From positions 1 to 64,000 of the forward strand of contig NZ_JACVPB010000004.1 of the NCBI RefSeq assembly GCF_018882085.1: DNA of 64,000 nucleotides, in the 5' to 3' direction. This DNA is from Polynucleobacter sp. AP-Reno-20A-A9 (GTDB taxonomy: Bacteria > Pseudomonadota > Gammaproteobacteria > Burkholderiales > Burkholderiaceae). The stretch's first letter is position 1; every line of letters begins with the position of its first letter. Below the pieces are notes generated by a model that was not told the origin of the DNA, did not search any database, and was given only the letters and a program-made list of their open reading frames with translations. The position numbers and the translations under genes were made by a program. Positions 54,172-58,357 of this stretch are shown here, one piece after another.

Positions 54172-56604
54172 ATGCCTGGCCACTTATTATTACCCTCTGA
54201 ACCAATTCAACTACCTTTGCTCCCATTGCGGGACGTAGTTGTATTTCCTCATATGGTGATCCCGTTGTTTGTGGGTCGCCCAAAATCGATTAAAGCCCTC
54301 GAGGCTGCCATGGAAACTGGAAAAAATGTCCTATTGGTAGCCCAAAAAACGGCTGCCAAGGATGAGCCCGTCATTGAGGACCTTTATGAGGTGGGCTGTA
54401 TTGCCAATATTTTGCAGATGCTCAAATTGCCTGACGGCACTGTGAAGGTGCTTGTTGAAGGTGTGCAGCGCGCAGAAGTTAGTCAAATAGAAGATAGTCT
54501 TGGTTACTTTAATTGCGAAGCGACACCGACTGCTATTAATGCGATTGATGCCCATGAAACCGAGGCCTTGCGTCGCGCAATCATGGCTCAGTTTGATCAA
54601 TACGTAAAACTCAATAAAAAAGTTCCACAAGAGATTCTGGCATCTCTTGGTGGCATTGATGACCCAAGCCGTTTGGCTGACACCATCTGCGCTCATCTAC
54701 CGGTGAAGCTAGAGCAGAAACAACGCCTACTTGAAATGATGGATGTTGTGCAACGTTTGGAAAGTTTGCTGGCTGATCTCGAGAGTGAGATCGACATACT
54801 GCAGGTTGAGAAGCGTATTCGTGGACGTGTAAAGCGTCAGATGGAAAAGAGTCAACGCGAGTATTACCTCAATGAACAAGTAAAAGCGATTCAGAAGGAG
54901 TTGGGCGAGGGTGAAGAGGGTGCAGATCTCGAAGAGTTAGAGAAGCGCATCAAGGCAGCACGTATGCCTAAAGAAGCTTTGAAAAAGGCGGAGTCAGAAC
55001 TCAAGAAACTCAAATTGATGTCTCCTATGTCTGCAGAGGCTACGGTCATCCGTAACTTTATTGACACCTTGGTAAACCTCCCATGGAAGAAGAAAACCAA
55101 GATTAATAACGATCTCACTAATGCTGAGAAAGTATTGGACGAAGATCACTATGGCTTGGATAAAGTCAAAGAGCGTATCTTGGAGTACCTCGCAGTTCAG
55201 CAACGCGTTGATCGTGTGAAAGCTCCGATTCTCTGCTTGGTTGGTCCTCCGGGTGTCGGTAAAACTTCTTTAGGTCAATCTATTGCGCGTGCGACCAACA
55301 GGAAGTTTGTGCGCATGGCCTTGGGTGGTGTCCGGGACGAATCCGAGATTCGTGGTCATCGTCGCACCTACATTGGTTCGATGCCTGGCAAGATTCTGAG
55401 CAGCCTCACCAAGGTAGGTGTACGTAACCCTTTATTCCTTCTGGATGAAGTGGATAAGATGGGTATGGATTTCCGCGGTGATCCAGCCAGCGCCTTATTA
55501 GAGGTTTTGGACCCTGAACAAAATCACACATTTCAAGATCACTATGTAGAAGTAGATTTTGATCTATCTGATGTGATGTTTGTCGCTACCTCGAATTCTT
55601 TGAATATTCCTGGTCCATTATTAGATCGCCTTGAAATTATTCGCTTAGCTGGCTATACCGAGGATGAGAAAACCAGCATTGCTGTGAATTATTTGATTCC
55701 AAAGCAAATCAAAAATAATGGCTTAAAGAAGGATGAGCTCAAGATTGAAGATAGCGCAGTGCGTAATATGATTCGCTACTACACGCGTGAGGCTGGCGTT
55801 CGTTCTTTGGAGCGTGAAATCAGCAAGATTTGCCGCAAAGTAGTAAAGCTGTTGCTCCTGAAGAAAGAAGCTGCTCCAGTTGTTGTGAATGCGGATAACC
55901 TGGAGAAATTCTTATCAGTGCGCATGTATGACTTTGGTTTGGCTGGTAAAGAAAATCAAGTTGGTCAGGTGACTGGTTTGGCCTGGACTGAAGTGGGCGG
56001 CGATTTACTCACCATTGAGGCTGCTGTTATGCCGGGTAAAGGTGTTATCACTCGCACCGGCTCTATTGGTGACGTAATGAAAGAATCCGTTGAGGCTGCC
56101 AGAACAGTAGTTCGCTCCAGATCCAAGCGACTTGGTATTACGGATGAAGCCTTTGAGAAGAAGGATATTCATATTCACTTCCCAGATGGCGCGACACCAA
56201 AAGATGGTCCATCAGCCGGCATTGCAATTACGACAGCCTTGGTATCGGTATTTACTGGTATCCCAATTCGTTCGGATGTTGCCATGACAGGTGAAATTAC
56301 GCTTCGTGGAGAAGTATTGCCTATTGGCGGATTAAAAGAGAAGCTTTTAGCGGCTCATCGCGGAGGAATTAAATTAGCCTTAATTCCCGAAGAGAACGTC
56401 AAAGATCTGATTGATATTCCGGACAATGTCAAAAATGCGATTGAGATTATTCCGGTTCGCTGGATCGATAAAGTGTTGGAGCTGGCTTTAGAGCGTATGC
56501 CTGAAGCACTGCCAGATCCTACCCCTGAAGAGCTGGCTAAAAAGGCTGCGGAAGCCAGTAAAGCAAACGAGAAGGGTGCAGCCGCAGACGTTCTTAAGCA
56601 CTAA
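54172..56604 (+). CDS. lon: ATP-dependent protease Lon
   Basis: An 810-residue AAA+ protease of misfolded and regulatory proteins. It has the N-terminal substrate domain (LPLLPLRDVVVFPHMVIPLFVGR), the AAA+ module with Walker A GPPGVGKTS and Walker B FLLDEVDK, and the catalytic Ser-Lys dyad in PKDGPSAGIAI and GGLKEKLLAAHR. The start has GGAGG eight bases upstream. The last 25 residues are an Ala/Lys-rich tail not needed for catalysis. It is monocistronic, bounded by a terminator and tRNA-Val. Confidence 0.97.
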   Translation: MPGHLLLPSEPIQLPLLPLRDVVVFPHMVIPLFVGRPKSIKALEAAMETGKNVLLVAQKTAAKDEPVIEDLYEVGCIANILQMLKLPDGTVKVLVEGVQRAEVSQIEDSLGYFNCEATPTAINAIDAHETEALRRAIMAQFDQYVKLNKKVPQEILASLGGIDDPSRLADTICAHLPVKLEQKQRLLEMMDVVQRLESLLADLESEIDILQVEKRIRGRVKRQMEKSQREYYLNEQVKAIQKELGEGEEGADLEELEKRIKAARMPKEALKKAESELKKLKLMSPMSAEATVIRNFIDTLVNLPWKKKTKINNDLTNAEKVLDEDHYGLDKVKERILEYLAVQQRVDRVKAPILCLVGPPGVGKTSLGQSIARATNRKFVRMALGGVRDESEIRGHRRTYIGSMPGKILSSLTKVGVRNPLFLLDEVDKMGMDFRGDPASALLEVLDPEQNHTFQDHYVEVDFDLSDVMFVATSNSLNIPGPLLDRLEIIRLAGYTEDEKTSIAVNYLIPKQIKNNGLKKDELKIEDSAVRNMIRYYTREAGVRSLEREISKICRKVVKLLLLKKEAAPVVVNADNLEKFLSVRMYDFGLAGKENQVGQVTGLAWTEVGGDLLTIEAAVMPGKGVITRTGSIGDVMKESVEAARTVVRSRSKRLGITDEAFEKKDIHIHFPDGATPKDGPSAGIAITTALVSVFTGIPIRSDVAMTGEITLRGEVLPIGGLKEKLLAAHRGGIKLALIPEENVKDLIDIPDNVKNAIEIIPVRWIDKVLELALERMPEALPDPTPEELAKKAAEASKANEKGAAADVLKH

Positions 56605-56710
56605 AAATAGGGTGATTTTTCGTTAGAGCTTTCTCATCTATTGAGGCCGGTTTAGCGGAAAATCCACCTAAAGTTCGTGCTTGGGTTACAATCTCACCTG
56701 TAATATTTTG

Positions 56711-56786
56711 GGGCGCTTAGCTCAGTTGGTAGAGCGTCTGCCTTACACGCAGAATGTCGGGAGTTCGAGCCTCTCAGCGCCCACCA
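56711..56786 (+). tRNA. tRNA-Val (TAC anticodon)
   Basis: A 76-nt tRNA with acceptor GGGCGCT/AGCGCCC, anticodon loop CTTACAC giving anticodon TAC, T arm GGGAG-TTCGAGC-CTCTC and encoded A-CCA at 56783-56786. It lies between lon and the PpiD-like gene. Confidence 0.97.
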
Positions 56787-56893
56787 AATTATTACCGTCA
56801 TGTTTTCCTTTGCCTACTCAGGCATTTCAGTACCCTCCGGCCCAGCGCCTAGTACACTCCTGGTATTGATAATTTTTACTAGCGAACTTTTAC

Positions 56894-58357
56894 ATGTTTG
56901 ATACCGTCCGTAAGCACCAACGAATTCTCCAATTTGTATTAATGCTTTTGATTGTTCCATCTTTTGCATTCTTTGGAATCTCTAGCTATTCCAGCTTCAT
57001 GGACAAAGAGACCGACCTTGTCAAAATCAATGGCAAACCTATCACCGCTCAAGAGGTAGATTCTGCTGCGAAACGTCAGGCAGAGCGCGTAGGTGGAAAT
57101 GCGCAGATTGCTCAAAGTCTCCAATTTAGACAAGCAATTTTGAATGAATTAATGCAGCAGCGTATTCTCGGATTCGCAGTAAACAATTTGCGTTTGCAAG
57201 TTGGCAAAGAGGCGTTAGTTAAAAGCCTGCAAAATATTCCACAGATTCGTGCTTTGTATAAGCAAGATGGCAGTTTCGATGATGCGCGGTTTAAACAACT
57301 CCTAGCTAGCAATGGCTTGAATGAAGAGCAGTTTTATGCAAGCCAAGCATTTGATTTAAAAATCAGTCAGCTGGTGAACTCCGTAGCCCGCACTGAAATC
57401 GGTAGTCCCAAATTATCCGATATCGTTTCAACCCTTTACGAGACTGAGCGTCAAGTTCAGGTGCTATCGTTTGATGCGAAAGATTACTTAAGCAAGGTAA
57501 ATCCATCCCAAGAAGACCTACAGGCTTTCTACAATGCCAACGCTAAGTTATTCGAGAGCCCAGAGTATGTAGATGTCGAGTACATCGTTCTCAAGGCGGA
57601 TCCAAAGGAAGATGCAAAAGTATTTAGCGAAAAAGCTGATCAATTTGCCAATATTACTTATGACCAGTCGGATAGCCTTAAGCCGGCTGCAGATAAATTA
57701 AAACTGAATATTCAAAGCCAGAAGGGCGTAATGCGTTCTGGAGTTGCTGGTGTTGCAAAAGATCACCCATTGGCCAACCCGAAGGTGATTCAATCTCTAT
57801 TTGGCGATGAAGCAGTGAAGAACAAACGAAATATTGAAGCTGTGCAAACTGCTCCAGGCGTTTTTGTTTCAGCCCGAGTGGTGATTTTTCATCCCGCTCA
57901 AACTCTCCCGTATAAAGATGTTGCTGCTGAGGTCAAGCGTCAAGTTAGTCAACGTATGGCCGAAAAACTTGCCATAAGCGCTGCAGCTGATCGCTATGCC
58001 TCATTAGAAAAAGATCCAAAGAATAGCACCGGCTTTGCTAGCCCGATTTGGGTTTCTCGTAACAAGCCTGCAAATTTGGTGGGCGGAGCTCTGGATGAAG
58101 TGATGTCCGTCAATCCCGATAAATTCCCTGCGCTTGTATCAGTTCAAAATCCAGGTGTTGGCACCATTCTGTATCGCGTTGATCAGGTAAGACAGCCAAC
58201 AGGCGTAGACGCAAAGGTCCATAAGGCACAAGCGCAACAAATTCAGGCATTGGCAGCCCAAGCTGAGTTTGCTGCCTTTATGGCTTATTGGCGTGATGTT
58301 GCCGGGGTAAAGACAATCAACCCCCTTAAGCCCCCATCAACTGGATCGGGCAGCTAA
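56894..58357 (+). CDS. ppiD: PpiD-like periplasmic chaperone lacking the parvulin domain
   Basis: A 487-residue inner-membrane-anchored chaperone. Residues 1-10 are cytoplasmic, 11-32 (ILQFVLMLLIVPSFAFFGIS) form the membrane anchor, and 40-165 match the SurA_N-like part of PpiD, including VNGKPIT-type VKINGKPITAQEV. Beta-proteobacterial PpiD is about 620-650 residues with a parvulin domain in the middle. Here the chain passes directly from VDVEYIVLKADPKEDA (about 226-241) to the part beginning SEKADQFANITYDQSDSL, which normally follows the parvulin domain. The domain is therefore missing; catalytic isomerase activity is not expected, while holdase function may remain. Confidence 0.85.
   Translation: MFDTVRKHQRILQFVLMLLIVPSFAFFGISSYSSFMDKETDLVKINGKPITAQEVDSAAKRQAERVGGNAQIAQSLQFRQAILNELMQQRILGFAVNNLRLQVGKEALVKSLQNIPQIRALYKQDGSFDDARFKQLLASNGLNEEQFYASQAFDLKISQLVNSVARTEIGSPKLSDIVSTLYETERQVQVLSFDAKDYLSKVNPSQEDLQAFYNANAKLFESPEYVDVEYIVLKADPKEDAKVFSEKADQFANITYDQSDSLKPAADKLKLNIQSQKGVMRSGVAGVAKDHPLANPKVIQSLFGDEAVKNKRNIEAVQTAPGVFVSARVVIFHPAQTLPYKDVAAEVKRQVSQRMAEKLAISAAADRYASLEKDPKNSTGFASPIWVSRNKPANLVGGALDEVMSVNPDKFPALVSVQNPGVGTILYRVDQVRQPTGVDAKVHKAQAQQIQALAAQAEFAAFMAYWRDVAGVKTINPLKPPSTGSGS

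Follow-up and report, generated by a model that had tools for sequence, protein, structure and literature searches.

The window, that is, the whole stretch of 64,000 nucleotides analysed here, contains an intact open reading frame that starts with an ATG at 56894, stops at 58355-58357 and encodes a protein of 487 residues. Upstream of it lie clpP, clpX, lon and then a tRNA-Val gene (names given from sequence, not from annotation), which places the frame in the position after clpP-clpX-lon that is characteristic of ppiD. The interval between lon and the frame (56605-56893) holds only the tRNA gene; no hupB-like open reading frame of 80 or more codons was seen there, the place that hupB occupies in E. 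coli. In the genome (2.18 Mb, 43 contigs), the sole match of the 487-residue protein is its own gene. The gene is under purifying selection, with a median dN/dS of 0.02-0.05 per segment, calculated from the 6-12 of 14 pairs that were usable and with dS saturated.

Table 1. Features of the ppiD locus and of its product, in window coordinates
Feature	Position	Strand	Basis
lon	54172..56604	+	named from sequence; syntenic neighbour
tRNA-Val (TAC), between lon and ppiD	56711..56786	+	immediately 5' of ppiD in relatives too (synteny)
ppiD orthologue without canonical parvulin domain, 487 aa	56894..58357	+	ORF, Pfam, genome surveys
Putative N-terminal membrane anchor, residues 9-26	56918..56971	+	hydrophobic helix in sequence and in low-confidence model
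SurA_N-like part of NC domain, residues 41-183	57014..57442	+	PF13624 at 1-160, model
Second domain, piece 1, residues 184-221	57443..57556	+	model, E. coli PpiD alignment; domain names after PMC9643414 (available text)
Third domain, residues 222-345, predicted parvulin fold closed across the junction	57557..57928	+	models, structural matches, PF13145 at 204-343
Deletion junction, residues 236-241; relatives hold ~155 aa with the canonical parvulin there	57599..57616	+	alignments
Second domain, piece 2, residues 346-437	57929..58204	+	model, E. coli PpiD alignment
C-terminal helix of NC domain, residues 440-470	58211..58303	+	model, E. coli PpiD alignment

A preliminary description had taken the product for a PpiD-like chaperone that kept its anchor, its SurA_N-like domain and its C-terminal part and had lost the central parvulin domain, and had suggested a search with the Rotamase profiles. 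In Pfam, SurA_N_3 (PF13624) matches residues 1-160 (E 1.7e-30), and PF00639 and PF13616 give no match up to E 10. PF13145 (Rotamase_2) matches residues 204-343 at E 2e-5 with 25.8 bits, just below its cut-off of 27. A full-length protein from a sister genus, searched for comparison, scores 103, 112 and 111 bits with PF00639, PF13616 and PF13145. A six-frame PF00639 search of the whole genome (E <= 1) found nothing at ppiD, and with the NCBIfam model PRK10788 (PpiD, peptidylprolyl isomerase) the protein reaches 91.7 bits against an equivalog cut-off of 493. When aligned with the proteins of sister genera, it matches in two pieces, residues 1-237 and 240-481. The roughly 155 residues that relatives carry in between, inserted at residue ~237/241, comprise the entire parvulin domain together with its flanking helices, and in the eight Polynucleobacter proteins tested only two or three residues are left in these columns. 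The junction is clean and in frame at residues 237-241, inside the interval of 236-247 described earlier. The putative anchor, the SurA_N-like part and the C-terminal part are all retained, as judged by Pfam, the structural model and the alignment with E. coli PpiD, and outside the parvulin the protein groups with full-length PpiDs, both on a tree and by the two-piece match. The preliminary observation was borne out, and its interpretation in part: the 487-residue protein is confirmed as a PpiD orthologue that lacks the canonical parvulin domain.

The domain that hosted the insert

The published AlphaFold2 model of E. coli PpiD shows domains set one within another: an NC domain (38-186 and 580-622), a second domain (187-223 and 477-578), a third domain (228-261 and 360-470) and, innermost, the parvulin, the second and third domains having the same fold (PMC9643414; this and the other PMC papers are cited throughout for the available portions of their text). 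According to the model and the alignment, the 487-residue protein retains every one of these domains except the innermost. The whole-protein model has a pLDDT of 80.2 and a pTM of only 0.45, so that the arrangement of the domains is uncertain. When residues 200-345 were predicted alone with AlphaFold2, they gave a closed fold that runs straight across the junction (pLDDT 94.5, pTM 0.81).

We compared this third domain with known structures. The PpiD-YfgM entry 8zht aligns over 137 residues (Z 12.3, rmsd 8.9), with the match spanning chain residues 230-575; the domain is therefore split there by the insert. Further matches are SurA (1m5y; Z 9.1, rmsd 3.1, 101 aligned), the SurA P2 domain (4g2p; Z 8.2, rmsd 3.2, 98 aligned) and the parvulin domain of E. 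coli PpiD itself (2kgj; Z 5.7, rmsd 3.4, 92 aligned). Among the first 33 matches, 31 are described as PPIases, PpiD, or proteins of the SurA, PrsA or PEB4 type, and FKBPs follow at Z <= 4.0; many of the Z values are 7-8, a range that the program itself rates as middling. With the whole model as query, the PPIase domain 8sot aligns to residues 223-336 (Z 8.3, rmsd 3.2, 101 aligned). Foldseek returned one match to the third domain at E <= 0.001 (9a7d_B) and 8zht at E 0.8. A phmmer search of the protein against PDB sequences gave no useful match, 8zht was absent from the PDB sequence search with the E. coli PpiD query and from the 60 of 66 matches listed for A2, and hhalign of the third and second domains against canonical parvulins gave nothing significant (third domain: probability 0.3%), a result made uninformative by the narrow alignments.

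Full-length PpiDs own the same third domain (alignment; profile match at 1.7e-50), and in the 487-residue protein, by sequence and model, strands 225-234 and 323-333 of this domain carry none of the histidines of the catalytic strands. On these models, the parvulin fold at about 222-345 is a degenerate host of the insert and not the lost domain. The preliminary description had named a parvulin fold between residues 205 and 330 as a sign against the loss. Taken literally, that sign is present, with such a fold predicted at about 223-345, but the fold is that of the host; the loss stands, and the description needs rewording. As regards parvulin-type PPIases, the protein lacks a PF00639/PF13616 domain and has, in the third domain, the predicted parvulin fold, a matter of fold and not of function. 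Excision of the insert at its root would have left the third domain closed, well folded and without catalytic histidines.

The earlier description had also used the reported inactivity of the E. coli domain as a guide to the one lost here. This does not carry over. The E. coli inactivity has been attributed to a missing critical histidine (PMC9797188), and all 21 full-length relatives from the family that we examined have both parvulin histidines, E. coli PpiD having neither. Moreover, the PpiD of C. jejuni does show PPIase activity (PMC5368265). The retention of the histidines in relatives, together with the activity of the C. jejuni protein, suggests that the domain lost in the ancestor of Polynucleobacter was probably an active one.

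Distribution of the short form

A matching gene is present in 177 of 186 Polynucleobacter genomes, and in all 144 of those with a completeness of 90% or more and a contamination of 5% or less. The complete copies fetched from the genus encode 478-489 residues, as against about 640 in most sister genera. In a second collection, the best 80 of 350 relatives all gave loci of 478-488 residues; these 80 were chosen by their likeness to the short query, and 45 of them are Polynucleobacter, the others being metagenome genomes. We built an HMM of the canonical parvulin, which recognises 20 of 20 full-length proteins from other families of the order, outside its training set, at <= 2e-35. On 153 genus-type loci (73 from the genome surveys and the 80 of the second collection, sets that share genomes, with three loci cut by contig ends) it gave no match better than E 0.3.

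The short form is not confined to this genus. In the family survey, 289 of 299 genomes have a match, and genera g21 (L098-L101) and g22 (L095-L097) are short too, with a looser cut: the proteins extracted from seven of the nine such genomes have 516-524 residues, and none of them matches the HMM below E 0.7. Within the family, one locus (L094, genome G431) has its ppiD match in three pieces with an internal TGA, and is possibly frameshifted; it retains the parvulin. The order survey of 150 genomes yielded as verified short cases three Polynucleobacter, four of four members of family f17, and G486, while the other genomes among the matches listed have open frames of at least 610 codons, save G543, where the frame is split between contigs. 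Family f17 (L206-L209), another family of the order, has an equally tight cut, with 0-2 residues left, and forms a separate clade. Within genus g67, G486 (L211) is short and G565 (L201) full-length, which would make that loss recent. Two genomes of 4.0 Mb from the order survey, G509 and G556, show just other parvulins and no recognisable PpiD, by either whole-gene loss or strong divergence.

In the class survey, 144 of 150 genomes have a match: 124 are full-length by open frame, eight are short, one is our own genome and 11 are unassigned. The canonical parvulin was found at E <= 7e-8 in 25 of the 26 full-length-frame members tested with the HMM; the remaining one, L281, was counted as full-length from its frame despite a match of only E 0.98. 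None of the eight short members has an HMM match at E <= 1, and PF00639 and PF13616 are absent at E <= 1 from all six of the eight that were run. Five of these six exceed the PF13145 cut-off (33-74 bits), a signal that we assign to the host domain together with flanking segments that were kept, since the core with the histidines is gone; they make a weaker case than Polynucleobacter. The residues left at the cut number 0-3 in Polynucleobacter and f17 and 19-50 in the other short PpiDs. Two further loci stand apart: L236 (G608) encodes a 618-residue PpiD with no canonical-parvulin HMM match and 41 bits with PF13145, perhaps a decaying domain, and L233 (G650) is an 811-codon frame that opens with a PpiD N-terminus.

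We inferred a tree of 97 proteins with the parvulin part removed (quick search, midpoint root, SH-aLRT support). Polynucleobacter (SH-aLRT 99), f17 (100) and g21/g22 (100) each form a single clade. Nine changes between full and short states are needed, at least six of them forced by well-supported branches, which implies that the parvulin was lost repeatedly; the loss in other bacteria is independent of that in Polynucleobacter, which is not unique. The tree took every short case and only a sample of full-length ones, so that frequencies cannot be read from it. L233, L236 and genomes G509 and G556 stand outside the tree and the loss counts, and L097, L075, L083, L088, L089, L093, L094 and L238 were omitted from it as redundant or partial.

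Function, alternatives and known systems

Given these data, what does the short PpiD do? We consider it likely that it is the only PpiD of the cell, that a single deletion in the ancestor of the genus removed its parvulin, and that it works as a parvulin-free holdase with YfgM at SecYEG. PpiD would be built like a set of Russian dolls, with the second domain inserted into the NC chaperone domain, the third into the second and the parvulin into the third, and the innermost, probably active doll would have been removed. By analogy with the E. coli protein, the remainder would still be anchored in the inner membrane next to YfgM and SecYEG, where the NC and nested domains could catch emerging envelope proteins without prolyl isomerisation, this task being left to SurA and soluble parvulins. 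A YfgM-like gene (PF09976, 6.7e-46) is flanked by hisS and bamB, the same order as in E. coli, and the genome encodes a SurA with two canonical parvulins, DsbB (1.4e-29) and a DsbA candidate that has a signal peptide and, within PF01323, a CPHC motif; the YfgM, SurA, DsbA and DsbB names come from sequence and family matches. Judged from E. coli PpiD and from the engineered deltaParv variant of it, the protein is probably a holdase at the Sec translocon with no PPIase activity. Complementation of an fkpA ppiD surA mutant by PpiD-deltaParv is complete, and in vitro the variant is better than the wild type at protecting citrate synthase; its protein level is lower, though, and it is slightly less effective at rescuing surA skp cells (PMC2956729).

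The loss could have other explanations. Small genomes might shed dispensable domains, and in the class survey the median genome is indeed 1.75 Mb for the eight short members and 2.9 Mb for the 124 full-length ones (one-sided Mann-Whitney p 0.0024, kinship uncorrected). However, genus members of 2.9-3.2 Mb (L056, L060, L064, L065, L070) also have no canonical parvulin, so that the loss predates the small genomes; one short case (G680) has a genome of 3.7 Mb, and four other parvulins and the two-parvulin SurA have been retained here. We regard genome reduction as an unlikely cause. It is still less probable that the third domain became a pseudo-PPIase and took over the binding once done by the parvulin, making the protein compensated and not simply reduced: the predicted parvulin fold and strong conservation of this domain would fit, but its occurrence in full-length PpiDs shows that it is no adaptation to the loss.

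The four parvulins that score above the Pfam cut-offs besides SurA raise the question of whether the domain moved to a gene of its own. They reach 31-74 bits with a PpiD-parvulin HMM, as against 160-170 for PpiDs (the HMM's own training set), and have signal-peptide-like starts; relocation was rejected on the HMM scores and strikes us as highly improbable. For an assembly error or a pseudogene we found no point in favour, and its chance is negligible: the gene is in all 144 good genus genomes, the best 80 of 350 relatives are uniformly 478-488 residues, and selection is purifying. An assembly error was rejected because the short form occurs throughout the genus-type loci, which agrees with the earlier description of a clean junction without a frameshift.

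Returning to the parvulin-free holdase, one might tentatively go further, in a reading that we would put at somewhat less than even. The PpiD parvulin may act as a removable cartridge, seated in a nested host domain, that several proteobacterial lineages have dropped independently of one another. Two of these, Polynucleobacter and f17, share the same tight cut, and the relatives of Polynucleobacter have an enzyme that looks active. The conserved work would then be done by the NC domain and the two pseudo-parvulin shells, and docking of DsbA on the parvulin 'hand' would not be general, since this genome codes for DsbB and for the DsbA candidate but lacks the hand. Such docking has been proposed (PMC9797188). 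In the form given in the available text of that paper, it cannot hold in Polynucleobacter.

The role of the PpiD parvulin is debated: the E. coli domain is inactive, C. jejuni PpiD has activity, an engineered variant can do without the domain, and DsbA has been proposed to dock on it. Polynucleobacter and the independent losses provide natural minimal PpiDs for structural and functional work and a comparative test of these proposals; in effect, whether PpiD needs its isomerase domain has already been put to the test in nature. The earlier phrase 'natural minimal version' is fair if the two remaining pseudo-parvulin shells are added to it; the case is not a singular one, as the domain was lost several times. 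The label 'peptidylprolyl isomerase' on such short PpiDs would mislead. The literature searched, which covers few subscription papers, yielded no report of a natural parvulin-less PpiD and none pairing Polynucleobacter with PpiD. Dispensability of the parvulin is already shown in E. coli by the engineered deletion (PMC2956729, in the text available). What we describe is a domain loss that is real and extends across the genus, in a chaperone already known; it recurs elsewhere and was anticipated by that engineered variant.

PpiD of E. coli K-12 (b0441, 623 aa) likewise follows clpX-lon and has a SurA_N-like part and nested C-terminal parts, with a membrane anchor that corresponds to the putative one here, but it keeps the innermost parvulin, with both histidines missing, and has the order lon-hupB-ppiD. 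E. coli PpiD-deltaParv is, in the available account, also a parvulin-free PpiD that functions in E. coli; it is artificial and cut at the parvulin itself, whereas the Polynucleobacter cut is natural and old and has removed the flanking helices too. The PpiD-YfgM structure 8zht is the one that matches best, both for the third domain and for the whole model (in the latter case Z 12.2, rmsd 11.7, 400 aligned), yet its chain of 663 residues contains the insert; we know it here from its structure-search entry alone. SurA shares the combination of an NC chaperone module with parvulin-fold domains, but is soluble, and the one encoded here carries two canonical parvulins. The closest natural parallels are the short PpiDs of f17, g21/g22, G486 and eight other class members, which equally have no canonical parvulin; these are separate losses on the tree, f17 with the same tight cut and the others with more of the insert still in place.
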